Virus record (IMG/VR): IMGVR_UViG_3300040856_000168
Span: 1 to 45,442 of that record
Strand: one strand, 5' to 3'
DNA from: a virus
DNA length: 45,442 nt
Both the position numbers and the translations under genes were made by a program. Under the pieces are notes generated by a model. That model was not told the DNA's origin. It searched no databases and was given only the letters and a program-made list of their open reading frames with translations. How positions within the stretch are numbered: the stretch's first letter is position 1; the number at the start of each line of letters is the position of its first letter. Positions 1 to 16,906 of the stretch are shown piece after piece.

Positions 1-439
1 GAGTCGGTAACCAATGCTTAATTTTAGGCGTAGCGCAAGCGACCGCAACTATTGCGTCAAGTTGTTCAACTGAATCCAAATCGCCAGAGTCAAACCAACG
101 ATGAAATTTTTCGCCCGTTTTATCTGCGATACGTTTGATTTGAAATACGCAAGCGTCAATCCATTGGGCAGGGTTAGTAGCTATCAAGCGTGTTGCCTTT
201 TCATAGTTGGCGTTCCAGCCTTTGTTGACACTAGGGCGCAAGCGTTGGATTCTACGGGCGTAACAAGACTCGCATACTGAACCTTTAACGTTAGCCAAAC
301 GACTCCCAACTTTACAAGCGAAAGAGTCTTGGGCGAAAGTTGATCCTGGCATTTTGGAATTGCCTTTGGATATATTGGCGGATTCTTTGGCGGCCTTGAG
401 CGTTAGGGCATAGGGGCGGTTTTTCGTTAGTGTTGCCAT
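1..439 (-). CDS. GP88-like phage protein, N-terminal part (cut by window edge)
   Basis: Open frame starting at ATG 439-437 and still open at base 1: 146 codons plus one base. The product has the pattern I associate with the phage GP88 family (PF17338 as I recall it): KMPGSTFAQDSFACKVG, then VCESCYAR (Cys pair about residues 59-62), then HRWFDSGDLDSVEQLD, then KHWLPT. Function is unknown in the family; the cysteines suggest a metal or Fe-S site (inference). It is the last gene of the leftward operon; its ATG overlaps the upstream stop (TAATG) and it has GGAGTC as ribosome site. The missing C-terminus appears at the other end of the window (45383-45442). Confidence 0.8.
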   Translation of the reverse strand, partial: MATLTKNRPYALTLKAAKESANISKGNSKMPGSTFAQDSFACKVGSRLANVKGSVCESCYARRIQRLRPSVNKGWNANYEKATRLIATNPAQWIDACVFQIKRIADKTGEKFHRWFDSGDLDSVEQLDAIVAVACATPKIKHWLPT

Positions 440-567
440 TATTTCGACTCCGTTGATATATGATAACCGCCTAGCATAGGCACAAAGATTCCGTATCCGT
501 TTGAGTCAAGATATGTAAACTTGCCCAACAAAAAACCGAAAATTAATATCCAGACATATTTTGCCAT
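439..567 (-). CDS. small membrane or secreted protein, 42 aa
   Basis: ATG 567-565, 9 nt after GGAGTC. It reads MAKYVWILIFGFLLGKFTY and ends HISTESK. The first about 15 residues are hydrophobic, so a signal anchor or signal peptide is likely. The stop overlaps the ATG of the next gene (TAATG), and the coupling sequence GGAGTCGAAATAATG encodes its terminal ESK. Not a family I recognise. Support comes from the ribosome site, coupling and exact packing between two neighbours. Confidence 0.7.
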   Translation of the reverse strand: MAKYVWILIFGFLLGKFTYLDSNGYGIFVPMLGGYHISTESK

Positions 568-776
568 TATTTCGACTCCGCATTGATTGCAGCACGCAAG
601 AGTTCCAAAGAATTGATAAGCGAGTCCAGATCATGCCCGAATCCGTATATCTGATCAAAGTTATCGACATTGGCACACTCTTGCACCATAACTTCACTAC
701 CTAACCAATGCTGCACAATAGATATGTTTTGGCCTTTATAGGTTAATTTGATTTGATTACGTTCGACCTGATCCAT
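567..776 (-). CDS. hypothetical acidic protein, 69 aa
   Basis: ATG 776-774, preceded by GGGAGTCGCTATA, overlaps the stop of the upstream membrane protein gene by one base. The frame is open further upstream, but only this start has the operon-wide GGAGTC site. The product starts MDQVERNQIKLTYKGQNI and has a C-terminal LDSLINSLELLRAAINAESK helix-like stretch. No family recognised. It ends ESK through the same coupling sequence as its downstream neighbour. Confidence 0.7.
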   Translation of the reverse strand: MDQVERNQIKLTYKGQNISIVQHWLGSEVMVQECANVDNFDQIYGFGHDLDSLINSLELLRAAINAESK

Positions 777-946
777 TATAGCGACTCCCAAAATAAAACC
801 GTTAGAATACCAAAGGCGGCAACTGTAGCGCATAGCATCGCCGCAATAGCTTCTGCGGTGTCTAGGTAAAACGGTGCAAAGCAAACGACAACTAGCGTAA
901 AGCACCAAATCAAAAAAGTTGCGGTTTGTAGTAAAAGGGTTTTCAT
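776..946 (-). CDS. small two-helix membrane protein, 56 aa
   Basis: ATG 946-944 follows GGAGTCAAAACC. The product starts MKTLLLQTATFLIWCFTLVV and has two hydrophobic segments (about 3-24 and 30-52) separated by LDTAE, so probably two transmembrane helices in the inner membrane. It ends WESL, again because the next gene's ribosome site lies in its last codons. A role as holin-like or superinfection protein is possible but not shown. Confidence 0.7.
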   Translation of the reverse strand: MKTLLLQTATFLIWCFTLVVVCFAPFYLDTAEAIAAMLCATVAAFGILTVLFWESL

Positions 947-986
947 GGTTTTGACTCCGTTGGTTTGTTTATAAGTTATTTTATCA

Positions 987-1013
987 ATGGGCCAAACGAT
1001 TCGCAAGGCCCAT
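987..1013. other. 7-bp inverted repeat in operon gap
   Basis: ATGGGCC at 987-993 pairs with GGCCCAT at 1007-1013 around a 13-nt loop that contains GATTC. It lies in the only sizeable gap (947-1024) of the leftward operon. No T-run follows it on the minus strand, so it is more likely an mRNA hairpin or processing/attenuation site than a strong terminator. Confidence 0.4.
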
Positions 1014-1024
1014 AACTAAAACAA

Positions 1025-1246
1025 CTAGCCCGCAATGCGATGGAATTGACGCAAGGCCTTGCGATAGTTGCAAGAGACTGAAAGCTTGCCAAAATGCGCC
1101 CCAATAGTTGCGGGGCCTTTGGTCAATTCATAGCGTTTTTTAATCTGACGTTTACGGGCAATGCCTTGGATTGAATTGAGAATAACAAAGCGGAAACCCT
1201 TTGTTCCGTCGTTCAATGGGGCGGTTTTAATTAGTGATTTGAACAT
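1025..1246 (-). CDS. hypothetical basic protein, 73 aa
   Basis: ATG 1246-1244 with AAAGGAGTCACAAA upstream. The product (MFKSLIKTAPLNDGTKGFRF... RQFHRIAG) is strongly basic (many K/R, few acids), compatible with nucleic-acid binding. No family recognised. Second gene of the leftward operon, after a 35-bp gap. Confidence 0.65.
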   Translation of the reverse strand: MFKSLIKTAPLNDGTKGFRFVILNSIQGIARKRQIKKRYELTKGPATIGAHFGKLSVSCNYRKALRQFHRIAG

Positions 1247-1281
1247 TTTGTGACTCCTTTGTCTGTTGTGATGATTTGACG

Positions 1282-1464
1282 TTACGCTGATTCGTTTACT
1301 CTGTCAACTAGTTTAGGATTGTCAGAATATGAAAGCAATGCATCGTTTTCGCCTGTTGACGTATGAATAAGAGTCCATCCCTCCGACTCTAACATTGCCT
1401 TGCGCTTTTCTGCTGCACTAACTGATTCTGGATCATTCATTCTGATTGTGACATATCGAAACAT
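1282..1464 (-). CDS. hypothetical protein, 60 aa, first gene of leftward operon
   Basis: The start is ATG 1464-1462 because GGAGTC stands 5 nt before it; a longer reading from 1530 has no ribosome site. The product starts MFRYVTIRMNDPESVSAAEK; the charged middle (KRKAMLESEGWTLIHTSTG) suggests a small alpha/beta fold. No family recognised. The promoter's -10 lies about 92 bp upstream, leaving a leader of about 85 nt. Confidence 0.65.
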   Translation of the reverse strand: MFRYVTIRMNDPESVSAAEKRKAMLESEGWTLIHTSTGENDALLSYSDNPKLVDRVNESA

Positions 1465-1555
1465 TTTTGACTCCGTGGTTTGTGTTTTGATGATTCCACC
1501 TTGCCTTGATTCGCAATGGGAGTCAAACATTAATTTTTACCCGTGATTCATTATA

Positions 1556-1584
1556 ATTATATATACACAAGGCCAATGTCGCAA
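1556..1584 (-). promoter_or_regulatory. consensus sigma70-type promoter for the leftward operon
   Basis: Read on the minus strand: -35 TTGCGA (1584-1579), a 17-bp spacer, then a perfect -10 TATAAT (1561-1556). It points into the six-gene leftward operon. It lacks the AAGTCC element of the three phage promoters elsewhere, so it probably answers to the host sigma factor (inference), which would fit early expression. Confidence 0.7.
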
Positions 1585-1604
1585 AATGATCATTTTATGT
1601 CGCA
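1576..1604. promoter_or_regulatory. palindrome with flanking direct repeats at the leftward promoter
   Basis: AAAATGATCATTTT (1583-1596) is a perfect 14-bp palindrome. It is flanked by two direct copies of ATGTCGCA (1576-1583 and 1597-1604), the first overlapping the -35 box. This is the geometry of a regulator-binding site. The regulator is unknown; no obvious repressor gene is present. Confidence 0.5.
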
Positions 1605-2085
1605 TTATGGGGTTGACACGTCCAGACTTCGGGGAATCACTTTTTCGACCTAGACCACGCCAGAACCGTTTGGGCATTCTGGGGGCATTTTTGGGGGGTT
1701 TTTGGGCCTATTGACTCCCATACCCGAATCATGCTAAGGTGATTCTGAGGCTCGGTTACTATCCCGATAACCGTTTGTGTTGGTGGATTCCGTCCTATTA
1801 GTTTAATGGTTAAACTATTGCGTTTTATGCATAGCAGCCATGCAAAATTGACTGTTGTAATATCAGAATCTTGTCGTGCTAAAAAATACCGAATCACCTA
1901 GCGAATCAGTCGGTCGTGCGTTATCGTGCGGCAACTGATTCGTCAACTGTAAATCTATGTCAAGGGGAATCTTGTTACGAATCGTTGTATTTTAGCCACA
2001 CTATACCAAATTCCTTGTCAACTATCCTTTTGCGCTATTGACAGCACATTTGGATATGCGAATCACTATCCGAATCGGTAGTTTG
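1605..2085. other. gene-poor intergenic stretch
   Basis: No convincing gene. It is rich in GANTC sites, has G-runs at 1680-1708, and carries GGGGTTGACA (1609-1618) and TATGTCAAGGGG (1956-1967), both of which recur at 45195-45212. A minus-strand frame at 1637-1897 has a GTG start without a ribosome site and is probably not coding. A TTGACA at 2038-2043 has no good -10. Confidence 0.5.
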
Positions 2086-2187
2086 GAACGAATCAGGAAC
2101 GAATCGTGAATCTAGAACGAATCAAGAACGAATCATGAATCTAGAACGAATCAGGAACGAATCGTGAAAATGGAACGAATCAGGAAC
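2086..2187. repeat. tandem 29-bp direct repeats (iteron-like), 3.5 copies
   Basis: Units begin at 2086, 2115, 2144 and 2173; the last is cut to 15 bp. Each full unit has two GAACGAATC-type cores, GAACGAATCAGGAACGAATC, then a GTGAATCTA-type end, with few differences. The array holds eight GAATC (GANTC) sites and lies in the divergent control region before the rightward genes. No spacers separate the units. Candidate replication-initiator or regulator sites; this role is inferred from layout. Confidence 0.85.
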
Positions 2188-2210
2188 ATTGTGATATTTT
2201 TGCCACAGAC

Positions 2211-2316
2211 CCCCACAGTGGAAATAAGGACCCCCACCAGTGGAAATAAGGATTGACCCCGCCAGTGGAAATTGGTAATCTACTTACGAATCACCCCCGC
2301 AGTGGAAATTAGGAGG
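2211..2316 (+). repeat. four copies of a CAGTGGAAAT leader motif
   Basis: Copies at about 2211-2230, 2231-2252, 2253-2276 and 2292-2316 share C-rich sequence, a small CCAC/GTGG inverted repeat, then CAGTGGAAATAAGGA or a close variant. The last supplies the AGGAGG ribosome site of the first gene. A related leader precedes the gene at 2562 (2533-2556), and CAGTGGAAATGGAG precedes the gene at 12717. The first three copies contain Shine-Dalgarno-like AAGGA or a relic of it but have no start codon after them. Confidence 0.7.
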
Positions 2317-2322
2317 ACACCC

Positions 2323-2511
2323 GTGGAATATGTAAACCTAAGAGACAACCTGAACCTAGCATATGAGCAAGGCAGCACAGATGCATACTACGGTAAGATC
2401 AAGTTGTCGTTAAGAAAAGATACGCCATACAACAAATACACAGCAGAAGAAAAGCAGTGGTACTGGAAAGGTTATGGTGATGCAATCTTTGGCGAGAAAG
2501 ATTATGATTGA
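2323..2511 (+). CDS. RMF-like small protein, 62 aa
   Basis: Start taken at GTG 2323, 6 nt after a perfect AGGAGG; the frame is open upstream but without such a site. The product has LAYEQGSTDAYYGK, then NKYTAEEKQWYWKGYGDA. The A-x-x-x-G-x-x-A-x-x-G ... W-x-x-G-x-x-x-A pattern resembles ribosome modulation factor / Rmf-CrpP small domains. If so it could bind ribosomes or another host target early in infection. This is a pattern match, not a proven relation. First gene of the rightward arm. Confidence 0.65.
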   Translation: MEYVNLRDNLNLAYEQGSTDAYYGKIKLSLRKDTPYNKYTAEEKQWYWKGYGDAIFGEKDYD

Positions 2512-2561
2512 CATTACCAACGAATCAGTGTAGACCCACCGATAGAAATAAGGAGAACATT

Positions 2562-2819
2562 ATGACACTAGCAGCAGACACAGTACGTAGCATCGTAGCA
2601 GCCAAAGGCACACAGTTTGCCACAGTTACATTCATCAAGAAGGACGGTACAGAACGTACTATCAACGGCCTCTTCAAGCCTAGCAGCAAGATCATTGGTA
2701 ATGAGCAAGGTCAACGTAACAGTCAGGTCTTGCAAAACAATGGGCTTATCCCTATCTACTCTGTCGCAGAGAAGAAATGGAAATGCTTTAACGAAAACGC
2801 AGTAGTGGAGATAAGCTAA
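2562..2819 (+). CDS. phage SH3-barrel-like protein, 85 aa
   Basis: ATG 2562 follows AAGGAGAACATT. The product starts MTLAADTVRSIVAAKGTQF; its core FATVTFIKKDGTERTINGL, with a later IPIYSVAEKKWKCFN strand pair, resembles the small SH3 beta-barrel proteins common in marine phages (VTF.KKDGT.R...; Y......R..N). Function unknown; nucleic-acid or host-protein binding is a guess. Its stop overlaps the next ATG (TAATG). Confidence 0.6.
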   Translation: MTLAADTVRSIVAAKGTQFATVTFIKKDGTERTINGLFKPSSKIIGNEQGQRNSQVLQNNGLIPIYSVAEKKWKCFNENAVVEIS

Positions 2820-2962
2820 TGAAACACGAACTTATGGTAAGCGAATACATTGAAGGTGAATGGAGAGTAATTAAGTTGGACCGTGGTTGTATAGTTTGGG
2901 ATGTCTGCTTTGATAACGAAAACCAGATGTTAAAGTTTGTTAAAATGTTCTTAGGAGATTAA
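2819..2962 (+). CDS. hypothetical protein, 47 aa
   Basis: ATG 2819 overlaps the preceding stop by one base and the frame ends at TAA 2960-2962. The product starts MKHELMVSEYIEGEWRVIKL and has strands around VIKLDRGCIVWDVCF. Unrecognised. Support comes from translational coupling and exact packing in the operon. Confidence 0.5.
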   Translation: MKHELMVSEYIEGEWRVIKLDRGCIVWDVCFDNENQMLKFVKMFLGD

Positions 2963-2965
2963 GTA

Positions 2966-3124
2966 ATGTGGAGCAAAGATAAAGTAATTGAGGTTTACGA
3001 CAGGCACCCTGACCTAACCCTTAAACGTATGTCGCAGATGTCGGGATACAACGTGTCGGAACTTATCGAAATTCTGTGTGATAACGATGCAGAGAAATTA
3101 CGCAAGAAAGCAAAAAGCAAATGA
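2966..3124 (+). CDS. hypothetical small protein, possible helix-turn-helix, 52 aa
   Basis: ATG 2966 follows TTAGGAGATTAAGTA (AGGAG site). The segment LTLKRMSQMSGYNVSELIEI reads like a helix-turn-helix, and the C-terminus is lysine-rich (EKLRKKAKSK). A small DNA-binding role is possible. The stop TGA overlaps the next ATG (ATGA). Confidence 0.55.
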   Translation: MWSKDKVIEVYDRHPDLTLKRMSQMSGYNVSELIEILCDNDAEKLRKKAKSK

Positions 3125-3387
3125 GAAAGTATGACATGAGGAATACATACACAATCGCAGCAGTCCCATCAGACGTAGAATCACGCACGGCCTTACCTGC
3201 TGTACCCCTGCCAGTGAAAATACCGTACACTCTGGCAGATGCAGAAGAGATAGCAAAGCGTTACAATGAGAACCCAATCTACAAAGGTATCTTGCGTAAC
3301 CACAGGTACAACCACTTTGTCGTTATGAGCCTAGAGGCACTGACAATGGACCCACCACCCTATTACCTTGGGGGCAGTAATGCTTGA
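3121..3387 (+). CDS. hypothetical protein, 88 aa
   Basis: ATG 3121 is coupled to the preceding stop. The product starts MRKYDMRNTYTIAAVPSD; it has a proline-rich part (LPAVPLPVKIPYT) followed by LADAEEIAKRYNENPIYKGI, and ends MDPPPYYLGGSNA. No family recognised. It overlaps the next gene by 8 bp. Confidence 0.55.
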   Translation: MRKYDMRNTYTIAAVPSDVESRTALPAVPLPVKIPYTLADAEEIAKRYNENPIYKGILRNHRYNHFVVMSLEALTMDPPPYYLGGSNA

Positions 3388-3769
3388 GTGTCTGATAGCT
3401 GCAATATTCTTTGAGGCACGTGACCAACCGTTAGAGGGGCAGTTTGCCATAGGTGATGTCATTATGAACCGTGTGGAATCTGACAGGTGGCCTGACAATG
3501 TTTGCGATGTCGTGTATCAGAAGAAACAATTTTCGTTCACACATGACGGAATGTCAGATAACCCATTGAAATACATGAAGAATGACTTGGAAAAAAGTGC
3601 CTATAAAACAGCCGTAGAGGTAGCCCTAGAGGTTGACAAGGGACACCAAATCGGTCTAACTAGCACTCATTATCACAGGGTTGATGTCAAACCCTACTGG
3701 ACGAAACACTATCTAAAGGATGGAACCATTGGAGAACACACATTCTATACCGCAGTGGATGGCAGATGA
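3380..3769 (+). CDS. SleB-type cell wall hydrolase
   Basis: The start is ATG 3380, after GGGGGCAG; 129 aa. The product begins MLECLIAAIFFEARDQPLEG, with the catalytic-type Glu in the FFEAR motif, followed by IGDVIMNRVESDRWPDNVCD, FSFTHDG and STHYHR. This is the Hydrolase_2/SleB pattern of peptidoglycan lytic enzymes (family knowledge). It lies in the early/replication arm, not with the M15 endolysin at 18497, so the phage carries two wall enzymes in separate transcription units. It starts with a hydrophobic stretch but has no clear signal peptide. Confidence 0.88.
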   Translation: MLECLIAAIFFEARDQPLEGQFAIGDVIMNRVESDRWPDNVCDVVYQKKQFSFTHDGMSDNPLKYMKNDLEKSAYKTAVEVALEVDKGHQIGLTSTHYHRVDVKPYWTKHYLKDGTIGEHTFYTAVDGR

Positions 3770-3908
3770 ACTAGGGCTACTGATGCCCACCCCACTAGAG
3801 CAACTAGAAGAACTAGAAGGACCGTACAACCGTGAATATTATCAAGAGGTATTTAGTAAGGGCTACTACAGAAACCCCTACGATGAAAATGGTGAAATAT
3901 CTTTCTAG
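3759..3908 (+). CDS. hypothetical protein, 49 aa
   Basis: Frame from ATG 3759 (MADELGLLMPTPLEQLEELE ... YYRNPYDENGEISF), overlapping the SleB gene by 11 bp. The ribosome site is weak (CAGTGG). The C-terminal YYQEVFSKGYYRNPY faintly recalls the RMF-like pattern of the first early gene. Unrecognised; the exact start is uncertain. Confidence 0.4.
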   Translation: MADELGLLMPTPLEQLEELEGPYNREYYQEVFSKGYYRNPYDENGEISF

Positions 3909-4098
3909 GATATTGTCGGTACTGAGTGTACTGATCAACGTCCTACTAGGTGGATCACAGAACCAAACTTTCTCTGCACGTAATTGGCAGTGGAAAAAGG
4001 ACAACAGACCCAACATAGTGTGGCTTATAGATTTGATCTTTGGTAAGGGTCACTGTAGTGAGTGTTGGGTCTGGTGGAAAACTAGAAGGAAATGGTAA
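3883..4098 (+). CDS. small phage membrane protein, 71 aa
   Basis: ATG 3883 (or 3889). N-terminal hydrophobic segment YLSRILSVLSVLINVLLGG (one helix), then NQTFSARNWQWKKDNRPNIV and a Cys/Trp-rich end (HCSECWVWWKTRRKW). I recall similar small proteins in many marine phages, without a known function. It follows the SleB gene closely, so a membrane role linked to wall lysis is conceivable but unproven. Confidence 0.6.
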   Translation: MKMVKYLSRILSVLSVLINVLLGGSQNQTFSARNWQWKKDNRPNIVWLIDLIFGKGHCSECWVWWKTRRKW

Positions 4099-4099
4099 G

Positions 4100-4231
4100 A
4101 TGCGTAGGCCCAACCCTATGGCTAAAGACCTAAGACAGAAAAAGTATAGGCCAAGGGTTGTCCCAGACAAAAAGAAGCCTATCTTACACAGGAAACGCAA
4201 ACACAAGGACAAGATAGATGAAAAAAGGTGA
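4100..4231 (+). CDS. very basic small protein, 43 aa
   Basis: ATG 4100, with AAGGAAATGGTAAG upstream. The product starts MRRPNPMAKDLRQKKYRPRV and continues with lysine/arginine-rich sequence; close to half of its residues are K or R. Likely nucleic-acid or ribosome binding by charge alone. It overlaps thyX by 14 bp. Confidence 0.55.
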   Translation: MRRPNPMAKDLRQKKYRPRVVPDKKKPILHRKRKHKDKIDEKR

Positions 4232-4895
4232 AATTAACGTAGACCTGATTGACAAAATGGGTGATGACCTGACTGTAGTACGTGCTGCACGTGTGTCGTA
4301 TGCATCCACATCAGACTGGGTAGGACAGGTACACTCAGGGGAATATAGACAGCTAAAGGATAAAGACATACGTCTGATCCAATACCTAGCAGAACATAAG
4401 CATACGTCACCATTTGGTCATTGCTTTACTAGTTTCCGTGTTGAGGCACCACTGTATGTAGCACGACAGTTAGTGAAGCATAAGTTCTTACGTTGGAATG
4501 AGATCAGTCGTCGTTACGTGAATTATGAACCTGCATTCTACGAACCATACTGGCGCAGCAAACCAGAGCATTCTAAGCAGGGTTCAGGGGGTCCGATGGA
4601 AATTAGCCAAGAGGCTGAAATGATGTTCCATGCGACACTACGTAATGCCCTGACGACATATGACATGTTGATCAAGGAAGGTGCTTCACCAGAGCAAGCA
4701 CGTGGGGTATTACCGCAGAACATGATGACCTCATGGTACTGGTCTGGGTCGTTGGATGCATGGGCTGATATGTGTAAGCTACGTTGCGCAAAAGACACAC
4801 AATCAGAGACACGCATTGTAGCCTCTGTGATCTATGGTGAAATGCTGAAGCTGTACCCTGTGTCGTGGGCAGCACTGATGGACCAAGAAGAATGA
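4218..4895 (+). CDS. thyX: flavin-dependent thymidylate synthase ThyX
   Basis: 225 aa. It makes dTMP from dUMP with methylene-THF and reduced FAD. The signature region reads KHKFLRWNEISRRYVNYEP, the equivalent of the usual RHR...NE.S.RY ThyX motif with K-H-K in place of R-H-R. Other family parts are AARVSYAS near the N-terminus, EHKHTSPFGH, and CKLRCAKDTQSETR near the C-terminus. It supplies thymidylate together with NrdJ, MazG and DUF3310 later in the arm. The stop overlaps the next ATG. Confidence 0.95.
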   Translation: MKKGEINVDLIDKMGDDLTVVRAARVSYASTSDWVGQVHSGEYRQLKDKDIRLIQYLAEHKHTSPFGHCFTSFRVEAPLYVARQLVKHKFLRWNEISRRYVNYEPAFYEPYWRSKPEHSKQGSGGPMEISQEAEMMFHATLRNALTTYDMLIKEGASPEQARGVLPQNMMTSWYWSGSLDAWADMCKLRCAKDTQSETRIVASVIYGEMLKLYPVSWAALMDQEE

Positions 4896-5059
4896 CTTGG
4901 TTTCTGGTATTAGTGTGGGTTTACCAAGGTACCCCGTCAGTGGAAATTATAGATAAGTACAAGTCTATGTATGATTGCTTTTATGCATTTGAATTATACG
5001 AGGATCAGGTACAAGAGGAAATGCAATTAGTTTGCGTTAAGGAGAAAACCAATGAATGA
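4892..5059 (+). CDS. hypothetical protein with hydrophobic N-terminus, 55 aa
   Basis: ATG 4892 overlaps the thyX stop (ATGA). The product starts MTWFLVLVWVYQGTPSVEII; the first about 12 residues are hydrophobic (signal-like), and the rest is acidic. The gene contains a dispersed copy of the CCCCGTCAGTGGAAATTA motif at 4930-4947. Unrecognised. Confidence 0.5.
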   Translation: MTWFLVLVWVYQGTPSVEIIDKYKSMYDCFYAFELYEDQVQEEMQLVCVKEKTNE

Positions 5060-5363
5060 TGCAGGGATACTTGGAGTAGAAACAGTAGAAGAACACGAAG
5101 ACGGTAGTGCCACCTACAAGTTTCACATGGATGCACATTGTCGTGGGTTACTGGCAGAGGAAGGCTTGAAGCTAGTCCTCTACTGTGCAGCAGCCAACAT
5201 GGACATGCAGCTAGTCTATGACTTCATTGAGGATCATATTAAGTACGAGAAAGATGAACTAACAGAGTATGAGTTTGGTACTACAGACGAACCACAGAAA
5301 TGTGTGTCGTGTGGGGGTCCAGCGAAGTCTGACTTCTGTGAGTTCTGTCTGAATGAGGAATAG
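5052..5363 (+). CDS. hypothetical protein with C-terminal zinc ribbon, 103 aa
   Basis: ATG 5052 has AAGGAGAAAACCA upstream. An acidic alpha/beta N-terminal part (about 1-80) is followed by CVSCGGPAKSDFCEFC, two CxxC knuckles about residues 86-101 that should bind Zn. The role is unknown. It lies just upstream of the sigma-like gene, so a transcription-related role is possible (inference from position only). Confidence 0.6.
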   Translation: MNDAGILGVETVEEHEDGSATYKFHMDAHCRGLLAEEGLKLVLYCAAANMDMQLVYDFIEDHIKYEKDELTEYEFGTTDEPQKCVSCGGPAKSDFCEFCLNEE

Positions 5364-5373
5364 GGGGTATGAA

Positions 5374-5868
5374 ATGAAACCAGAGCAAATAGCAACACAC
5401 TTGGCGGCACGTTACGGTGACCCAGAGAAATATGATGACCTGTACCAAGAGGCATGGCTACACATCCTAGAATGTCAGGAGAAGAACCTGAGTGATAAGG
5501 CTACCTACTGGTATGTCAAAGAGCGTGTGAACAACTACGCTAACTACAGGGATCGTGTGGTTACTCTGCCTGAACGTAGTGGCTCTAGGAAGCTGCTAGA
5601 GGAGATGGAGATAGAGAACGACATACAGGACTACATGGCTGTCACTAGTGACCATACAGAGGCTTACGAGTTGAAGGATGAGGTCAAGCACCTCAAGAAA
5701 GTGATGGAGAAACTAGACAAAAAGGAACGAGAAGTCTTGTATGACATCTACTGGGGTGGTATGACGACAAGAGAACTAGCAGAGAAAAGAGGCTACAGTC
5801 ATCAGATGTGGCACAAATATCACACAAACTTACTAAATAAGCTAAAAAGTTTACAGGAGAAAATATAA
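5374..5868 (+). CDS. sigma-70-family-like RNA polymerase sigma factor
   Basis: The start is ATG 5374 (MKPEQIATHLAARYGDPEKY), about 6 nt after GGGGGT; 164 aa. Residues about 10-32 (ARYGDPEKYDDLYQEAWLHI) resemble sigma region 2 (D-L-x-Q-E-x-W). Residues about 108-160 (LDKKEREVLYDIYWGGMTTR then ELAEKRGYSHQMWHKYHTNL) resemble region 4 with its helix-turn-helix. The size fits a small ECF-type or phage-type factor. The gene's last codons contain the -35 box of the first of three look-alike phage promoters, which makes it the natural candidate to recognise them (inference). An HTH regulator rather than a true sigma factor remains possible. Confidence 0.75.
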   Translation: MKPEQIATHLAARYGDPEKYDDLYQEAWLHILECQEKNLSDKATYWYVKERVNNYANYRDRVVTLPERSGSRKLLEEMEIENDIQDYMAVTSDHTEAYELKDEVKHLKKVMEKLDKKEREVLYDIYWGGMTTRELAEKRGYSHQMWHKYHTNLLNKLKSLQEKI

Positions 5869-5878
5869 GTCCTATATA
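5850..5878 (+). promoter_or_regulatory. phage promoter P1 (before primase-helicase)
   Basis: -35 TTTACA (5850-5855), a 17-bp spacer ending AAGTCC, and -10 TATATA (5873-5878). It shares AAGTTTACA and AAGTCCTATATA with the promoters at 9751 and 45009. The -35 lies in the end of the sigma-like gene. It would start mRNA at about 5885 for the gene at 5933. Confidence 0.75.
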
Positions 5879-5932
5879 CTAAAGTCCCCCTTTGGTATGA
5901 CAACTACAACTACAACATAAGGAAACTATAGT

Positions 5933-7501
5933 ATGGCAGAGAAACCACACCAACCATGTCCCTACATTGATTGTGGGTCGTCAGATGCCTTTAGCTACAA
6001 CACAGATGGGTTTGGTCGTTGCCATAGTTGTGACCGTGGTTATCCATCAAAGGACGCAATGCACCCTTGGGCAAAAGAGAGGTACCCGACAGTGGAAAAT
6101 GATGGATTTGATAACCTACGTTCTATGGTGTCGTCACAACCTACGTCTATGTCTCAGAAGACCTACAAGGAAATGCGTGGTATTACTGCAAAGACAATGG
6201 AAGAGTTTGATGTCGTCACTGATGACTTTACGCAAGAGTATACATACCCCTCTGGTGGAAAGAAAGTGCGTATGATTGCAGACAAGAAGTTCTTCACCAA
6301 GGATGGCTTCAAGGGTGACGAACTGTTTGGTATGAACCTGTTCCCTGCTGGGTGTAGTAAATTTGTCACAATAACAGAAGGTGAATTAGATGCTATGTCT
6401 GCATGGCAGATGCTAAAGTCTAACTGGACTACACCTGTTGTGTCGTTACCATCAGCTACCCCATCGAAGAAATTATGGGAAAACTGTAAGGAATGGTTAG
6501 ACAGCTTTGAGAAGATCATTCTATCTGTCGATAACGATGAAGCAGGTAACAATGTCGCTGACCGTATGTCACGCCTGTTTCCCAACAAGGTCTACCGTGT
6601 AGATCATGGGCAGTACAAGGATGCTAACGACTTCCTACAGGCAGGTAAAGCACAGGATTACAAATCGTCGTGGTGGAAGCCTATCAAGCACACACCAGAG
6701 AACGTAATCAATACTGCTGACCAGTTCTTGAAGCTGTATGAGGACACGCCAGAGCATGTATATGTACCAACAGGTATCCAAGCCCTAGACGACAAAATCT
6801 TAGGTTTGATGCAGGGACACTTTACCATGTTCAAGGCACCTACTGGTATCGGTAAGACAGAACTAATGCGGTATCTTGAATACCAGATGCTACAACGTGA
6901 CATCCCTATCGCTACGTGGCACCTTGAGGAGACTAAACTACGTTCACTATTAGGGCTTGCGTCCTACCACATGAATGATAACGTAACACGCCGTGACCTA
7001 ATTGAGGACAAGGGGGTTGATAAAGAAGTACGTGAGGCCATCGTTGACCTTACTAAAGGGGAAAACCTTTATCAGTTCTACTTGGGGGACGGACAGGGGG
7101 CCGACGAACTGTGTGATCAGATACGGTTCTTTAGTCAGGCATGTGACTGTAAGTTTGTATTCTTTGAGCCTATCCAAGATGTCATCACTGGCACTGAGGA
7201 AAGCAAAGAACAACAACTGGCAGACCTGTCCGTCCGATTGTCGAAACTGGCAGCGGAACTTAACATAGGTATCGTGTCTATCGGACACACTAACGAGAAT
7301 GGAGACTTCAAGTATTGTAAGATGATTGGTCAACGTGCTAGTGTCATTGTGAACCTACACCGTGACAAAGAGTCAGACGACATGGAAGAACGCAACACAA
7401 CGTATCTAAAGATTGAGAAGAACCGTCCGTCATCCGAAGAGGGTATGGCAGGTAAACTCAAGTTCAACTACGATACATTCACACTAAGAGAGGTGTACTA
7501 A
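5933..7501 (+). CDS. T7 gp4-like DNA primase-helicase
   Basis: 522 aa. N-terminal zinc-binding module with CPYIDCG and CHSC (about residues 9-35). A TOPRIM-type primase core follows with EGELDAMSAW (about 150-160) and LSVDNDEAGN (about 198-207). The DnaB/gp4-type helicase domain has Walker A APTGIGKTEL (about 303-312), then VFFEPIQDV and SIGHTNENG. It should synthesise primers and unwind DNA at the fork with the PolA-type polymerase downstream. It is behind phage promoter P1 with an AAGGAAACTATAGT ribosome site. Confidence 0.95.
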   Translation: MAEKPHQPCPYIDCGSSDAFSYNTDGFGRCHSCDRGYPSKDAMHPWAKERYPTVENDGFDNLRSMVSSQPTSMSQKTYKEMRGITAKTMEEFDVVTDDFTQEYTYPSGGKKVRMIADKKFFTKDGFKGDELFGMNLFPAGCSKFVTITEGELDAMSAWQMLKSNWTTPVVSLPSATPSKKLWENCKEWLDSFEKIILSVDNDEAGNNVADRMSRLFPNKVYRVDHGQYKDANDFLQAGKAQDYKSSWWKPIKHTPENVINTADQFLKLYEDTPEHVYVPTGIQALDDKILGLMQGHFTMFKAPTGIGKTELMRYLEYQMLQRDIPIATWHLEETKLRSLLGLASYHMNDNVTRRDLIEDKGVDKEVREAIVDLTKGENLYQFYLGDGQGADELCDQIRFFSQACDCKFVFFEPIQDVITGTEESKEQQLADLSVRLSKLAAELNIGIVSIGHTNENGDFKYCKMIGQRASVIVNLHRDKESDDMEERNTTYLKIEKNRPSSEEGMAGKLKFNYDTFTLREVY

Positions 7502-7911
7502 TGGAAACTAAAGTTTGTAAAATATGTGAAGAAGAGAAGTCTTTATCTGAGTTCTATAAAAAAGTATGGGAAGGAGAGGATGGGTATAAAAGGGACAATC
7601 ACGATCATAGATGTAAATCTTGTCATGGTGAAATACACAGACACGTTAGAAAATTAAACAAAGGTTTTGAGAGCTTGAAGCCATCCTATTGCGAGTGTTG
7701 TGGACAGGAAGACATTAAAACAATGATGGACCATGACCATGAAACTGGTAATTTTCGTGGTTTTATATGTAAGTCTTGTAATAGAAATATTGCCTTTTTC
7801 GGTGATACTTTTGAGTCTGTTATGAAATCGGATTGCGATCAGATGTATAAAGACTACATGAAGATAGCTAATTACCGACAAGGAAAGGGTACTAGATTTG
7901 CCAGTATTTGA
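7501..7911 (+). CDS. endonuclease VII-type HNH nuclease
   Basis: 136 aa. N-terminal Cys pairs CKICEEEK and CKSC, then CECCGQ and the catalytic-type MDHDHETGNFRGFICKSCN (about residues 76-94), the Endonuclease_7 (PF02945) signature of T4 gp49-like nucleases. The gene is wedged between helicase and polymerase, overlaps both, and looks more AT-rich than its neighbours. It could be a Holliday-junction/packaging nuclease or a homing-type insertion. A separate T7 endonuclease I-like resolvase is encoded at 11242, so resolution may be redundant. Confidence 0.88.
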   Translation: METKVCKICEEEKSLSEFYKKVWEGEDGYKRDNHDHRCKSCHGEIHRHVRKLNKGFESLKPSYCECCGQEDIKTMMDHDHETGNFRGFICKSCNRNIAFFGDTFESVMKSDCDQMYKDYMKIANYRQGKGTRFASI

Positions 7912-9730
7912 CATAGAAACAGATGGTCTGAACGCCACAAAGATACATGTGTTATCGTGGATGGGGGACGATGGAAATGTGCATCACACCCACGACTATG
8001 TAGCTATGCGTATCTTCTTTGAGGAAGCAGATATACTCATTGGTCACAACATTATCCGCTTTGACATCCCCCAAGTGGAAAAAGTGCTAGGGGTCAAGAT
8101 CAAGGCAAAGCTAGTCGATACTCTAGCCTTGTCGTGGTATCTAGACTTCTGGCGACCAAGCCACGGTCTTGCGTCTTATGGTGAGGACTTCAACATACCC
8201 AAGCCTCAAATTGACGACTGGGAAAACCTCACACCAGAGGAATATGCACACCGCTGTAACGAGGACGTACTTATCAACTATGCATTGTACAAACGACTAA
8301 ACTACAAACTAGATCAACTGTATAAAAACGAAAGTGACAAGTGGCGACTGATCGACTACCTGACGTTCAAGCTACAGTGTGCAGCAGAGCAAGAGGCCCT
8401 ACGATGGAAATTAGACGTACCCAAGGCACAATCCCACTTACAAGAGTGGGAAGCACTCAAGCAAGAGAAGACAGAGGCACTTGCCAATGTTATGCCGAAG
8501 GTAGTCAGTTACGCTGTACGGACACGACCAAAGGTGTACCACAAACAGGACGGAAGTTTGTCTGCAAACGGTGCCAAGTGGGAACAACTCTGCAAGGACC
8601 ACAAGGTCCCGACGAGTACCCAGAGCCTGAAAGTCAAGGTTGGTGAAGATCGTGCTAACCCTAGTTCTGTATCACAGGTAAAAGAGTGGTTGTTCATGCT
8701 AGGGTGGGAACCACGTACATTTAAGTTTATGAGGGAAGCAGATGGCTCCACAAGGAAACTGGAACAAATACGTAAAGACGGAGAACTCTGTTCCTCGGTA
8801 CGTGAGTTGGTTGAACGGGAACCTGCTATTGGTTTGCTTGATGGCCTCACTGTTCTTTCTCATCGTATTGGGGTCATCAAGGGCTTACTTGAATCAGAGA
8901 ACGATGGATACGTGCAAGCTACTGTTGCAGGGCTTACTAACACCTTCCGCTTTCGTCACGCCCGACCATGTGTCAACTTGCCAAGCGTTGATCGACAGTA
9001 CGGAAAAGAAATAAGGGAATGCCTGACAGCACCAGAAGGTTACACTCTGTGTGGTGCCGATATGACATCATTAGAGGACACGACCAAGCGTCACTACATG
9101 AAACCACTAGACCCTGATTATGTCGAGGAAATGTCTAAGGATGGGTTTGACCCACACCTTGACCTTGCCAAACACGCAGGTGTCGTCACACAAGATGACA
9201 TCGACAAACACAACTCAGGTGAACGTAGCCTCAAGGCACTGCGTAAGAACTACAAGGTGGTGAACTACAGTGCGACTTATGGCGTAGGTAAGCAGACCCT
9301 AGCCAGAAACACAGGTATGTCTGAGAGCGAAGCACAGACGCTCCTAGACGCATTCTGGTCACGCAACTGGTCTGTGCAGAAAGTGAGTGAAGATGCAAGG
9401 GTACGAACTGTTCTTGGCTCTGATTGGCTTTACAATCCTGTGTCTGGTTTCTGGCACTCTTTACGATCTGATAAGGATCGGTTTAGTACCTTGAACCAAT
9501 CTACAGGTGTCTATTGTTTTGACAGTTGGGTAAAGGGTATCAGAGAAATGGGACTACAGACTATTGGCCAGTTCCATGACGAAGTAATCGTCTTAACCGA
9601 AGAAGGAGATGAGGACAAAACAGAGAACATTATGAATATGAGCATAGACAACCTCAACAATGAACTGCGACTAAATGTAACATTAGGTATAGATGCCCAG
9701 TTCGGTAGGACATATGCAGACATCCACTAG
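7898..9730 (+). CDS. family A DNA polymerase (PolA type) with 3'-5' exonuclease
   Basis: 610 aa, replicative polymerase of T7 gp5 type. Exonuclease motifs: DIETDGL (5-11), HNIIRFD (about 55-61), and CNEDVLINYAL (about 120-130). Polymerase motif A GADMTSLED (about 387), motif B RKNYKVVNYSATYG (about 448-462), motif C FHDEV (about 560). Motif B aligns without gaps to E. coli Pol I 754-767 and puts Tyr at the Phe762 position. The start appears to be TTG 7898 after AAGGAAAGGG, inside the end of the endonuclease VII gene; no ATG lies before the exonuclease motif. Confidence 0.95.
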   Translation: MPVFDIETDGLNATKIHVLSWMGDDGNVHHTHDYVAMRIFFEEADILIGHNIIRFDIPQVEKVLGVKIKAKLVDTLALSWYLDFWRPSHGLASYGEDFNIPKPQIDDWENLTPEEYAHRCNEDVLINYALYKRLNYKLDQLYKNESDKWRLIDYLTFKLQCAAEQEALRWKLDVPKAQSHLQEWEALKQEKTEALANVMPKVVSYAVRTRPKVYHKQDGSLSANGAKWEQLCKDHKVPTSTQSLKVKVGEDRANPSSVSQVKEWLFMLGWEPRTFKFMREADGSTRKLEQIRKDGELCSSVRELVEREPAIGLLDGLTVLSHRIGVIKGLLESENDGYVQATVAGLTNTFRFRHARPCVNLPSVDRQYGKEIRECLTAPEGYTLCGADMTSLEDTTKRHYMKPLDPDYVEEMSKDGFDPHLDLAKHAGVVTQDDIDKHNSGERSLKALRKNYKVVNYSATYGVGKQTLARNTGMSESEAQTLLDAFWSRNWSVQKVSEDARVRTVLGSDWLYNPVSGFWHSLRSDKDRFSTLNQSTGVYCFDSWVKGIREMGLQTIGQFHDEVIVLTEEGDEDKTENIMNMSIDNLNNELRLNVTLGIDAQFGRTYADIH

Positions 9731-9750
9731 GATAAAAAATGACAAAAAAG

Positions 9751-9779
9751 TTTACAAGGACGAAAAAAAGTCCTATATA
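9751..9779 (+). promoter_or_regulatory. phage promoter P2 (before SSB)
   Basis: -35 TTTACA (9751-9756), a 17-bp A-rich spacer ending AAGTCC, and -10 TATATA (9774-9779). Same architecture as the promoters at 5850 and 45009. It lies in the 80-bp gap after the polymerase gene and drives the SSB-to-DUF3310 run. Confidence 0.78.
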
Positions 9780-9810
9780 TAGTTACCAGTGTTAGAAAAG
9801 GATACACAAT

Positions 9811-10359
9811 ATGGCAAGATACACACTCGACATGGTTCTAGAATATGCAAAAGTATTCCCTGAGAACGCAGACATGGGCAACATGGATGGGCCACAATGG
9901 CAACAACAGATTGCTATGAAGGGTGGTCAGTATGTCGTAAATGCATACTTCACCAGTCAAGAACAGATTGACAAACTTATGATGGATGGCTTCAAGGCCA
10001 CAGTCATGGGTAACGCTCGTATTCAAGAGGGCAATGCTGACTTCGGTATTGGTAAGTACATGAAGATCAAACGTGGCGTAGCTGATGATGTACGTGACTG
10101 GATCGACCCAGTAACCAAAGAGAACGTCAACCTAGGTGGTCCTGTTAAGGTAGTTGACCTACGTCAAGGTAAGGAAAACGTCAGTAAGTGGGACTTCGCA
10201 GAAGATGGTGAACTAGGCAACGGTACACGGGCCAAGGTGCAGTTTGAAACCTATGCTGACGGTAACGGTCTTCGCCTCAACGGTATTGCTGTCACTGAAC
10301 TGATTGAACGTACAAGTGAACCATCAGAAGATGACATGATTTTTGCGGCGGCAGGTTAA
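9811..10359 (+). CDS. T7 gp2.5-like single-stranded DNA-binding protein
   Basis: 182 aa, ATG 9811 with GAAAAGGATACACAAT upstream. Beta-rich protein with KATVMGNARIQEGNADFGIG and VKVVDLRQGKENVSKWDF, and an acidic tail SEPSEDDMIF followed by AAAG. An acidic C-terminus with a terminal-region Phe is typical of gp2.5/SSB proteins. The position directly before exonuclease and endonuclease I matches the T7-type module. Assigned from fold-like pattern and context; a few residues after the Phe are unusual. Confidence 0.7.
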   Translation: MARYTLDMVLEYAKVFPENADMGNMDGPQWQQQIAMKGGQYVVNAYFTSQEQIDKLMMDGFKATVMGNARIQEGNADFGIGKYMKIKRGVADDVRDWIDPVTKENVNLGGPVKVVDLRQGKENVSKWDFAEDGELGNGTRAKVQFETYADGNGLRLNGIAVTELIERTSEPSEDDMIFAAAG

Positions 10360-10559
10360 TGCAAGTAGAAATTAGTTTTGTAATGGACAAAGATGAGGAC
10401 GGGGTTTCAGGCTCCGTCACCATCGAACGACAAGAGGTAGATAGCTTATATGATCTCCTACATCTATATCACGATGCTTGCCTCGCAGCAGGGTACACCT
10501 ACGTGGAATCCATCGGTGCGCACAAAGAGGGTGGCGAAATGGCTTGGTCGAGTTTCTGA
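10359..10559 (+). CDS. hypothetical acidic protein, 66 aa
   Basis: The start ATG 10359 overlaps the SSB stop (TAATG), and its stop overlaps the next ATG (TGATG). The product starts MQVEISFVMDKDEDGVSGSV and includes LYDLLHLYHDACLAAGYTYV. No family recognised; possibly an accessory of the replication module. Confidence 0.6.
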   Translation: MQVEISFVMDKDEDGVSGSVTIERQEVDSLYDLLHLYHDACLAAGYTYVESIGAHKEGGEMAWSSF

Positions 10560-11266
10560 TGGGATACGGAAAGGCTTTAATCGACGGTGATGTATTCGCC
10601 TATCGTGCTGCCTTTTCTACTCAAGATGAAAGCGAACGGGCTGCACGTGTAAAGACTGACGAGATACTGCAAATGAGTATAGAGTATGTATGTGGCTGGC
10701 CTTGGGACAGTGACGACTACCAAATCTATATCACATGCAGTGGACATCAGTTTAGACACGACATTGCCAAGTCACATGTTTACAAAGGTAATAGGTCCAA
10801 AAGAGAAAAGCCTAAACACCTTTCATTCATTCGTGACTATATGGTGTCAGATTGGCAAACGGTTGTCAGTGTGGAACAAGAAGCAGACGATTGTCTAGCG
10901 ATACATGCTACAGAACTCGACCATGACTGTACTATCGTGTCAGTAGATAAGGACATGCTACAGGTTCCATGCTGGCATTACAATCCTGTTAAAGGTACGA
11001 TGAATAAGGTTACCCCCGACGAGGGAATTAAGTTCTTCTATACCCAGATATTGACAGGGGACAGTGCTGACAACATCCACGGTCTACCTCAAGTTGGCCC
11101 TAAGAAAGCTGAGAAGATACTCAAAGGGTCAACCACTGAGGAAGATTTGTGGCATACAGTCGTTAAGGCTTATGATGGCGATGTAGATCGTGTAGTGGAA
11201 AATGCTAGATTGCTCTGGCTACGACGATACGAAGGGGAAATATGGCAACCACCAGACAAGCGATAA
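10559..11266 (+). CDS. FEN/T7 gp6-like 5'-3' exonuclease
   Basis: Start taken at ATG 10559 (MGYGKALIDGDVFAYRAAF), coupled to the preceding stop; 235 aa. Metal-binding motifs of the 5' nuclease family are visible: ALIDGDVFAYR (6-16), VEQEADDCLAI (about 107-117), TIVSVDKDMLQ (about 128-138), and the helix-hairpin-helix part LTGDSADNIHGLPQVGPKKA (about 166-185). It removes RNA primers and degrades host DNA in T7-type phages. It overlaps endonuclease I by 25 bp. Confidence 0.92.
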   Translation: MGYGKALIDGDVFAYRAAFSTQDESERAARVKTDEILQMSIEYVCGWPWDSDDYQIYITCSGHQFRHDIAKSHVYKGNRSKREKPKHLSFIRDYMVSDWQTVVSVEQEADDCLAIHATELDHDCTIVSVDKDMLQVPCWHYNPVKGTMNKVTPDEGIKFFYTQILTGDSADNIHGLPQVGPKKAEKILKGSTTEEDLWHTVVKAYDGDVDRVVENARLLWLRRYEGEIWQPPDKR

Positions 11267-11622
11267 AGCATGGCTATCGTTCTGGTCTAGAAGAGAGGGT
11301 ATCAAAGGAATTAGAGGAAGCTGGTGTTAAGTATGAGTATGAGACACAGAAAATCAAGTATCGTGTCGAGGAAGACCGTACCTATACACCAGACTTCATC
11401 TTACCCAATGGTATCATAGTCGAAACTAAGGGGCGGTTCACAGTGGCAGATAGAAAAAAGCATTTGCTAATTCAGAAACAGTACCCAAAGCATGACATCA
11501 GATTTGTGTTCCAGAACTCTAGAGCAAAGTTATACAAGGGTGCAAAGACTACTTATGCACAGTGGTGTGACAAGCATGGGTTCCTGTACGCAGATAAGTC
11601 TATACCAGAGGAATGGCTATGA
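11242..11622 (+). CDS. T7 endonuclease I-like Holliday-junction resolvase
   Basis: 126 aa. Pattern of T7 gp3: YRSGLEERVS (Glu about 17), TYTPDFILP (Asp about 51), IIVETKGRFTVADRKKH (Glu-x-Lys about 61-63), giving the PD-(D/E)XK-type catalytic set. It cuts branched DNA and helps degrade host DNA. It lies directly after the exonuclease. Confidence 0.93.
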   Translation: MATTRQAIKHGYRSGLEERVSKELEEAGVKYEYETQKIKYRVEEDRTYTPDFILPNGIIVETKGRFTVADRKKHLLIQKQYPKHDIRFVFQNSRAKLYKGAKTTYAQWCDKHGFLYADKSIPEEWL

Positions 11623-11816
11623 GTTTATCAGATTACATACAAGCGTATGATACAATAGAACAAGAAGACGACATAGATAAACTGAAACATATGGCTAAGT
11701 TCATATTGGTTGGTCGTGCTATGAATGACAGAAACTTATCTGAGGAAGAGGCTATAGCTTTAGCAGAATACAGTTCTATAGATTTAGGTATGGCAGAAGA
11801 GGTAGTGATACACTGA
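11619..11816 (+). CDS. hypothetical acidic helical protein, 65 aa
   Basis: Start ATG 11619 preferred, because AGGA stands 6 nt before it; ATG 11613 is the alternative. The product starts MSLSDYIQAYDTIEQEDDID and is highly acidic and helical, with LSEEEAIALAEYSSIDLG. No family recognised. Confidence 0.6.
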   Translation: MSLSDYIQAYDTIEQEDDIDKLKHMAKFILVGRAMNDRNLSEEEAIALAEYSSIDLGMAEEVVIH

Positions 11817-12361
11817 TGGGAAAAAGATCCGATTTTGTCAGGGTACCTAGGGACTACTACCCTACACCAGAAGAAGCTGTTAAGCCTCTTATAGATCACC
11901 TACCACAAGACAGTTTTAGTTTTGTAGAGCCTTGTGCAGGTGATGGTAGGCTTGTCGATCATATCGAACAGTTGACTGACTATGCAGGTAACTGTCAGTG
12001 GGCTTCCGATATAGAGCCACAGAGAAAAGATGTAATGCAGTGGGATGCACTGGATGTACAACCACATGATGTACTTGATATTGACTATTGCATTACTAAC
12101 CCACCGTGGGAACGAAACTTCCTACATAACTTCATAGACACTTGGATTGGCATCATGCCTACTTGGCTATTATTTGATGCTGACTGGATGCACACAAAGC
12201 AATCATCGGTTCTTATGACATATTGTTCTAAGATCGTAAGTGTAGGTAGAGTTAAGTGGATCGAAGGTTCTAAACACACAGGTAAAGATAACTGTGCGTG
12301 GTATCTGTTTAATCGACACCACAGGGGTCCAACAGAGTTTTATGGAAGGTTGATAGAATGA
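11816..12361 (+). CDS. small N6-adenine DNA methyltransferase-like protein
   Basis: 181 aa. SAM-binding motif I FVEPCAGDGRLVDHI (about 36-50) and catalytic motif IV CITNPPWERN (about 90-99), the NPPW form of amino-methyltransferases; YYPTPEEAV near the start is typical of phage Dam-like enzymes. It should methylate adenine in DNA. Its target is not visible from the sequence. In view of the GANTC clustering in this genome, GANTC is a testable candidate, but there is no CcrM-like C-terminal domain. It lacks a long target-recognition domain. Confidence 0.82.
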   Translation: MGKRSDFVRVPRDYYPTPEEAVKPLIDHLPQDSFSFVEPCAGDGRLVDHIEQLTDYAGNCQWASDIEPQRKDVMQWDALDVQPHDVLDIDYCITNPPWERNFLHNFIDTWIGIMPTWLLFDADWMHTKQSSVLMTYCSKIVSVGRVKWIEGSKHTGKDNCAWYLFNRHHRGPTEFYGRLIE

Positions 12362-12720
12362 TCAGTAGAGAAGACATAGAAGCATTTGAATACTTTAGTC
12401 AGACAGAAATGGAGATGAACGTATATCAGAACGCAGCAGCAAAGACAGCTATATACAAGAGTGAACACCAAGTTATATACCCCTTAATTGGCTTAACAGG
12501 TGAACTAGGAGAGGTAGCCAATAAAGTTAAGAAAATACTACGTGACGGTGTTTTTGATAGAGAGGGTATCCTAGATGAAATAGGAGACTGCCTTTGGTAT
12601 ATTTCTGCAATTTGCCGTGATCTTAATGTAAGCATGTCGGATGTTGCTGTTGGAAACCTAAAGAAGTTACAGGATCGCAAAGAACGTGGGGTCCTCAGTG
12701 GAAATGGAGACAAAAGGTGA
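12358..12720 (+). CDS. MazG-like nucleotide pyrophosphohydrolase
   Basis: 120 aa, one MazG domain: GLTGELGEVANKVKKI (about 44-59) and EIGDCLWYISAICRDL (about 76-91) supply the E-x-x-E ... E-x-x-D metal site. It hydrolyses NTPs/dNTPs or alarmone-like nucleotides; in phages it may reset host starvation signalling or clean the dNTP pool (family knowledge). The ATG overlaps the upstream stop (ATGA). Confidence 0.85.
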   Translation: MISREDIEAFEYFSQTEMEMNVYQNAAAKTAIYKSEHQVIYPLIGLTGELGEVANKVKKILRDGVFDREGILDEIGDCLWYISAICRDLNVSMSDVAVGNLKKLQDRKERGVLSGNGDKR

Positions 12721-12917
12721 AGACACTAATGAAATGGTGGTGGCGGTGGATTAACTACCAAGCCACATGGCGAGAACATCGTAAGGTCATCAAAGAACTT
12801 AATCAGATGACTGACCGACAACTAAATGACATAGGAATTAGTCGTGCAGACATTGATCGTCTGGTATGGCTAGGTGAAGACAAAACAATGCGTGGACGAG
12901 GAAAAGAACAAGAATGA
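12717..12917 (+). CDS. DUF1127 family small protein
   Basis: 66 aa from GTG 12717 (GGAG 7 nt upstream) or 62 aa from ATG 12729. WWWRWINYQATWREHRKVIK is followed by the DUF1127 core LNQMTDRQLNDIGISRADID. DUF1127 proteins are small arginine-rich proteins frequent in Alphaproteobacteria; one, CcaF1 of Rhodobacter sphaeroides, binds RNA and affects RNA turnover. A phage copy could alter host RNA metabolism (inference). The leader CAGTGGAAATGGAG upstream is a copy of the repeated motif found at 2211-2316. Confidence 0.85.
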   Translation: MKTLMKWWWRWINYQATWREHRKVIKELNQMTDRQLNDIGISRADIDRLVWLGEDKTMRGRGKEQE

Positions 12918-16864: not shown

Positions 16865-16868
16865 ACAC

Positions 16869-16906
16869 AAAAAAGCCCCCTAGGAATTAACCTAGGGGGT
16901 TCTTTA
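16869..16906. terminator. bidirectional rho-independent terminator
   Basis: CCCCCTAGG (16876-16884), loop AATTAA, CCTAGGGGG (16891-16899): a perfect 9-bp stem with six A before it and TTCTTT after it. It serves both converging arms: the rightward replication genes and the leftward late genes. Confidence 0.92.

Follow-up and report, generated by a model that had tools for sequence, protein, structure and literature searches.

Phage elements can be read through the state of adenine methylation, as pac of P1, a phage with its own methyltransferase, and mom of Mu demonstrate. On the side of the alphaproteobacterial host, GANTC situated between the −10 and −35 boxes defines a class of cell-cycle promoters (PMC4287350), and an extended motif, YGAKTCG, has been reported for GcrA (PMC7987155). 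Precedents exist for methyltransferases of phages, for phage elements gated by methylation, and for GcrA promoters. Here, we describe a GANTC-dense block (hereafter, the island) in the virus record IMGVR_UViG_3300040856_000168, positions 1 to 45,442 (hereafter, the window, the whole stretch of 45,442 nucleotides, nt), together with a phage methyltransferase and a class of GcrA-type promoters. Sequence comparison relates the window to Roseobacter phage CRP-6, which infects the RCA roseobacter lineage and has a short tail seen by microscopy; ocean-wide ubiquity has been reported for phages of this type (PMC6918029).

Clustering of GANTC sites in the window

Early genes of the window run rightward and late genes leftward, and the island, a short leftward operon with a divergent control region, adjoins the terminase genes. 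It was defined as positions 45050–45442 plus 1–2530 (2,923 nt). Exact counting yields 51 GANTC sites in 1–2530, eight in 45050–45442, 11 in 2530–16900, and 39 in 17000–45000, within a few sites of the hand counts given in a preliminary description of this DNA (about 55, 8–9, about 11, and about 40, respectively). The island has 59 sites, compared with 9.6 ± 2.8, and never more than 17, in 300 shuffles that preserve dinucleotides; an order-3 Markov model trained on the remaining window gives 6.6 ± 2.6, so that the excess is upheld by the Markov comparison that had been proposed earlier; the remaining 42,519 nt contain 50 sites vs. 143 ± 10 in shuffles. Thus, the enrichment in the island and the depletion in the backbone are both real, and the density in the island is about 17-fold that in the rest of the window.

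Repeats and ribosome-binding sites had been named as a possible source of the excess, which survives their removal: with the iterons, the terminator, and seven Shine–Dalgarno-type sites masked, 38 sites are left in 2,706 nt, that is, 14 per kb vs. 1.18 per kb in the rest (Poisson p ~1e-27). Taken together, the shuffles, the Markov model, and the masking rule out a composition or repeat artefact as the cause of the block. Among the 16 motifs of the form XYNY'X', the 17-fold enrichment is seen for GANTC only, the next well-sampled motif being enriched less than 2-fold. Both pairs of GANTC variants exceed the numbers expected from the rest of the window (GAATC/GATTC, 39 vs. 1.5; GACTC/GAGTC, 20 vs. 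2.1), and hence the N position is free.

The two dense parts had been taken to join across the window ends into one block of about 3 kb. In relatives, the dense region is indeed single and continuous, but comparison with the relative L016 shows that the two contig ends are not directly adjacent, about 200 bp being missing between 45442 and 1, inside a GP88-like gene. The short open reading frame that spans the junction is therefore an artefact.

Conservation of the island and selection on the motif

Counts in relatives bear the pattern out: it recurs in CRP-6, where 38 of the 69 GANTC sites lie in the last 2.5 kb, and in dozens of related marine contigs, the block being present in at least 60 related loci, with more retrieved by an iteron search. 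The gene content of the block varies among relatives (GP88, PF17338; DUF7227; DUF7178; small orphans). Despite this gene exchange, the GANTC density in the longer blocks is 11–24 per kb, and it is upheld among block homologues of 66–96% protein identity. Homologues of GP88 and DUF7227 in other phages (about 38–47% identity) have ordinary or low GANTC content, which rules out that the density was inherited with gene families rich in GANTC. On the same grounds, the data do not support a separate origin of the block, one of the causes considered in the preliminary description, since the genes are exchanged and yet GANTC stays dense.

In block coding DNA (26 kb), we observed 311 GANTC sites vs. 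192 ± 7.5 from synonymous codon shuffling, and GAGTC lies within 51 of 87 block ribosome sites. This shows that GANTC in the blocks is selected for as a DNA motif, both within and outside coding sequence, beyond the needs of the proteins. All four variants occur on the sense strand of the coding DNA (N being G in 112 sites, A in 90, C in 73, and T in 36), which disfavours an RNA-level motif, and a single extended transcription-factor motif for all sites is ruled out in coding DNA, the flanks being nearly free. The repeats of the control region differ between relatives: CRP-6 (L003, 44500–44900) carries TTGCAAGAATGTCACG and CCCCTCCGATGGAAA instead of the iterons of the window, and TGTCAC repeats similar to those of the CRP-6 control region are seen in the relative G004.

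The phage methyltransferase

The window encodes a small DNA methyltransferase of the N6-methyladenine (m6A) type, a predicted GANTC writer (11816–12361, plus strand; 181 amino acids; motif TNPPW; phrog_799, 2.2e-34). Its gene lies far outside the GANTC block, among replication genes, and next to it are a gene for a T7-type endonuclease I (PF05367) and one of MazG type. A restriction–modification system is not indicated, as no cognate restriction enzyme was found beside the gene and no restriction family is among the matches listed for the 24 scanned proteins.

By sequence and motif, the enzyme belongs to the phage family of CcrM-like GANTC methyltransferases. NPPW is invariant across 44 homologues, and homologues occur mostly in phages of Alphaproteobacteria. 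The AlphaFold model built with the 44 homologues has a predicted local distance difference test score (pLDDT) of 89, compared with 34 from the single sequence, and its closest solved folds are M.TaqI and M.BseCI. The enzyme is 37.6% identical to the PBC5 protein and 52% identical to gp015 of DSS3P8 (AMO44073), both listed members of this family; gp015 stands in the published alignment, which brings together CcrM-like GANTC enzymes both putative and confirmed (PMC5537653). The Paracoccus aminophilus enzymes of proven specificity were not found by the genome scan.

Co-occurrence of the enzyme and the island

Both the enzyme and the island are present in 14 CRP-6-type genomes, which are all those where both loci could be tested (the window, CRP-6, G001, G002, L026, L029, L030, L047, L049, L052, L063, L082, L344, and L241), and neither is present in four, namely, G004 and three cobaviruses (CRP-5, ICBM2, and P12053L). 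There are no discordant genomes (Fisher p 3e-4, a value that is too small given the relatedness of these genomes). The best control for this pairing is G004, whose TerL is 94% identical to that of the window, the polymerase 79%, and the small terminase subunit 79%: the neighbouring genes are there with the enzyme gene cleanly missing from between them, and the region homologous to the island has 0–2 sites per 500 bp. The sister clade of the L249 group (L354–L364) includes enzyme-less contigs and an island-less contig, but these are separate contigs.

Many enzyme-bearing phages and prophages have no GANTC cluster. Since the enzyme often occurs without the island and the island, where checked, never without the enzyme, the latter looks necessary, but not sufficient, for the island. 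In one enzyme-bearing prophage region, that of Aureimonas flava (L302; a locus of 16.5 kb with 30 GANTC sites), a single gene (2951–3724) contains ten of the sites, and its product of 257 amino acids has no Pfam match.

Candidate GcrA-type promoters

In a generic sigma-70 scan, promoters were no more numerous in the block than in shuffles, and the promoter class with GANTC in the spacer emerged only from comparison of many blocks. The pattern TTGAC-N8..10-(C/A)GA(A/C)TC(A/G) has 155 matches in the islands vs. 0–4 with a scrambled −35 box and 7–8 at two other spacings, and a second preferred spacing, 16–18 (151 matches), puts GANTC at −10; both counts, 155 and 151, include related sequences. 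Among the deduplicated spacer sites (n = 74), CGAATCR or CGACTCR is found 45 times in the promoter orientation and four times reversed, and TA...T follows the spacer site in 27% vs. 6%. The class is found neither in G004 nor in the cobaviruses. GcrA itself is present in five out of five roseobacter-type genomes with related prophage enzymes.

The window has two candidates on the minus strand, TTGACA-gagtaaaCGAATCAgcg-TAACGT (1276–1307) upstream of the gene 1025–1246 and TTGACT-cccattgCGAATCAagg-CAAGGT (1495–1526) upstream of the gene 1282–1464, and two on the plus strand, TTGACT-cccatacccGAATCAtgc-TAAGGT (1711–1743), directed rightward, and TTGACA-ttaccaaCGAATCAgtg-TAGACC (2508–2539) upstream of the rightward gene 2562–2819.

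Islands in other phage lineages

Six lambda-like contigs carry both the enzyme and an island (L338, in contig G024:C224; L417; L425; L460; L465; L484), with a peak of 12–22 sites per kb across 2–3.5 kb of accessory cassette. The small terminase gene is the next after the island in L338 (by family match) and, judged by eye from translations, stands next to the island in the other contigs; the L484 and L460 clusters contain DUF7227-like and GP88-like genes, also by eye. L338 (CAIVXR010000224.1), apparently a phage contig, is binned in a metagenome-assembled genome labelled 'beta proteobacterium', probably by misbinning, because outside this contig its methyltransferase family occurs almost exclusively in alphaproteobacterial phages.

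Phages DSS3P8 and RcXuper, both with the enzyme, have zones of 14–16 kb at 8–9 sites per kb vs. 2.3 elsewhere in the parts read; in the DSS3P8 zone, genes and gaps are equally GANTC-dense. These zones contain ten and seven promoters of the TTGAC/GANTC-spacer class, respectively, vs. 0–3 in controls, and some of them are repeated ahead of several genes. For example, in DSS3P8 (L275, 1–8200; L276, 42400–50000) a near-identical promoter family (..GCGAATCRTGGCA..AGTCTTACCGAAACGC) precedes many small genes annotated without function, and likely represents an early regulon. The zone of MD18 is weaker (6.2 vs. 2.2 per kb), with one promoter match only, and the 139-kb contig L172 was rejected as clustered, since its close GANTC pairs are spread over the contig.

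Other features in and around the island

The larger part of the island (1–2530; 51 sites) comprises the leftward accessory operon, the divergent control region, and the iterons, and the other end (45051–45442; eight sites), the end of the operon, its terminator, and a possible promoter toward the terminase genes. On the minus strand, a gene of a GP88-like protein (2–439; phrog_1392), cut by the contig ends, has a full-length counterpart in L016 that matches Pfam GP88, and is followed by small leftward genes at about 439–567, 567–776, 776–946, 1025–1246, and 1282–1464, recognized by open reading frames, ribosome-binding sites, and cross-genome clusters; each of these small genes has GGAGTC as its Shine–Dalgarno sequence. 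The intrinsic terminator of this operon, GGCGACTCTTCGGAGTCGTC-T6 (45332–45351, minus strand), has the motif in both stem arms. On the plus strand, the iteron array GAACGAATCnn (2071–2186; spacing 11 and 18 bp) contains GANTC in nearly every unit, and five copies of the CCCC..CAGTGGAAATAAGGA repeat (2210–2554), the unit of which lacks GANTC, lie in the leader that precedes the rightward early genes. No tRNA or Rfam RNA was found in the block. Just downstream of the rightward candidate promoter at 1711, the segment 1745–1830 contains a sequence resembling a tRNA D-arm (TAGTTTAATGGTTAAAC), with no call by ARAGORN or Rfam, and is possibly a small RNA.

The large terminase gene (43126–44478, minus strand; 86% identity to CRP-6 gp64) is overlapped by that of a putative small terminase (44372–44842, minus strand), which has no family match and is assigned by position only, with 62% identity to CRP-6 gp65. 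Between the terminase genes and the island lies an AT-rich gap without GANTC (44843–45050), the terminase-side 155 bp of which are 82% identical even in the island-less G004; this gap is a candidate late promoter or packaging site. Elsewhere in the window, the protein encoded at 5353–5868 has weak similarity to sigma-70 regions 2 and 4 (phrog_1740, 3.5e-8; Pfam below the cut-off), and might be a phage sigma-like factor.

Discussion

We propose, with a probability of about 0.45, that the block acts as a control island whose methylation is read to govern early and accessory genes. We infer that the phage enzyme, alone or together with host CcrM, would methylate the island on progeny DNA; after entry, methylated GANTC in sigma-70 spacers would recruit the host cofactor GcrA, and both the leftward accessory operon and the first of the rightward genes would fire immediately. 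Replication would then leave the sites hemi- or unmethylated and reset the island promoters until their remethylation by the phage enzyme. With its many sites within genes, the region is probably a dense target for both methylation and GcrA, which is the weakest step.

Several observations weigh against this interpretation. The promoters account for only a few of the 59 GANTC sites of the block, and the high density inside genes is left unexplained by the mechanism. The TTGAC/GANTC-spacer class is absent from the lambda-like islands and, by the strict pattern, from CRP-6's own block; given the former, GcrA-type promoters are not the whole explanation. A 2022 survey reported that GcrA motifs are positionally not asymmetric in alphaproteobacterial phages (PMC9437464). 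The GANTC specificity of the enzyme is predicted from family membership, its similarity to the experimentally proven PhiLM21_p027 being weak (26% over 98 amino acids), and the genomes that support the co-occurrence are related.

Other functions of the island can be envisaged. In P1, pac cleavage is gated by a cluster of GATC sites and a Dam that the phage itself encodes, and by this precedent methylated GANTC near the terminase genes might license the first packaging cut, timed by the phage enzyme, as terminase genes border the island in CRP-6-type phages and also, going by family match, in L338. We find this rather improbable: the cluster of P1 covers only about 160 bp, the GANTC density peaks at the control region and not next to the terminase, other genes occupy the roughly 5 kb between the terL of DSS3P8 and the start of its zone, and G004 retains its closely similar TerL and small subunit with neither island nor enzyme, so that the cognate terminase does not seem to need the island. 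It is quite improbable as well that methylation of the iterons and their flanks gates firing of the phage origin by a SeqA-like sequestration. The GANTC-bearing iterons at helical spacing, the location of the enzyme gene among replication genes, and the link with replication suggested by Decewicz et al. (PMC5537653) would fit such control, but the iterons are not common to CRP-6, whose other repeats have no GANTC in the unit, the sites reach across the operon and terminator, and no SeqA-like protein was found.

The island could also serve as a sink for host GcrA or CcrM, or as a methylated 'self' mark on a leading counter-defence segment, which we consider unlikely. The density is independent of position across genes, ribosome sites, and the terminator, the genes are accessory and exchanged, and in Caulobacter about half of the GcrA-bound sequences have GANTC, the top target being in a coding sequence (PMC3667746); however, a sink need not form one block, the backbone is depleted, and no known defence spares G-m6A-NTC islands. 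Finally, a by-product, either of recent acquisition of a GANTC-rich segment or of repeats and ribosome sites containing the motif by chance, is very improbable: the iterons and the seven Shine–Dalgarno-type sites do add to the count, but the 38 sites outside them and the terminator, the density kept across divergence and gene exchange, the codon choice biased toward GANTC, and the lack of an island where the enzyme is absent all contradict it. Of the three readings offered in the preliminary description, methylation-linked control is best supported, by the co-occurrence with the enzyme and by the GcrA-type promoters, the methylation itself being what we infer.

Beyond its proposed role as a methylation-read control island, the block may exemplify a new kind of phage element, which we put forward tentatively: kilobase-scale islands that saturate an exchangeable early or accessory cassette with sites of the phage's own methyltransferase, found in at least three unrelated lineages and serving as a methylation-state address. 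No description of such islands was found in the literature searched, most subscription papers being outside its coverage. CRP-6, DSS3P8 (Ruegeria pomeroyi DSS-3), and RcXuper (Rhodobacter capsulatus) are isolates with cultured hosts, which makes the proposal directly testable.

Comparison with known systems

The enzyme of the window is of the same family as the phage CcrM-like orphan GANTC methyltransferases of Decewicz et al. (2017), whose alignment includes DSS3P8 gp015; in the passages concerned, their role is left open and no dense target island is mentioned (PMC5537653). The island would give such orphan enzymes a target. The DSS3P8 paper mentions neither methylation nor promoters. Host GcrA/CcrM sigma-70 promoters share with those described here the TTGAC −35 box and GANTC in the spacer, CGAATCR being the complement of YGATTCG (PMC3667746, PMC4287350, PMC7987155); unlike them, the promoters here lie in phage DNA, several per island, and the coding DNA is GANTC-saturated too. 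Phages with clustered CtrA sites and lytic deferment are likewise phages of Alphaproteobacteria in which sites of a host cell-cycle regulator are gathered, an arrangement that evolved several times (PMC9437464). They differ in the regulator, and the island uses a methylation word; our results run counter to the absence of GcrA-site clustering in that survey. Pelagiphages are similarly depleted of GANTC, with only whole-genome density considered and no dense island described (PMC9516812).

The island thus joins subjects that were previously separate, namely, phage orphan methyltransferases with the specificity of a host regulator, host GcrA/CcrM promoters, and phage genome architecture. To our knowledge, its scale and the saturation of coding sequence have no precedent. 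P1 pac and Mu mom have a few GATC sites over 100–200 bp, whereas the island is of kilobase scale and runs through genes.

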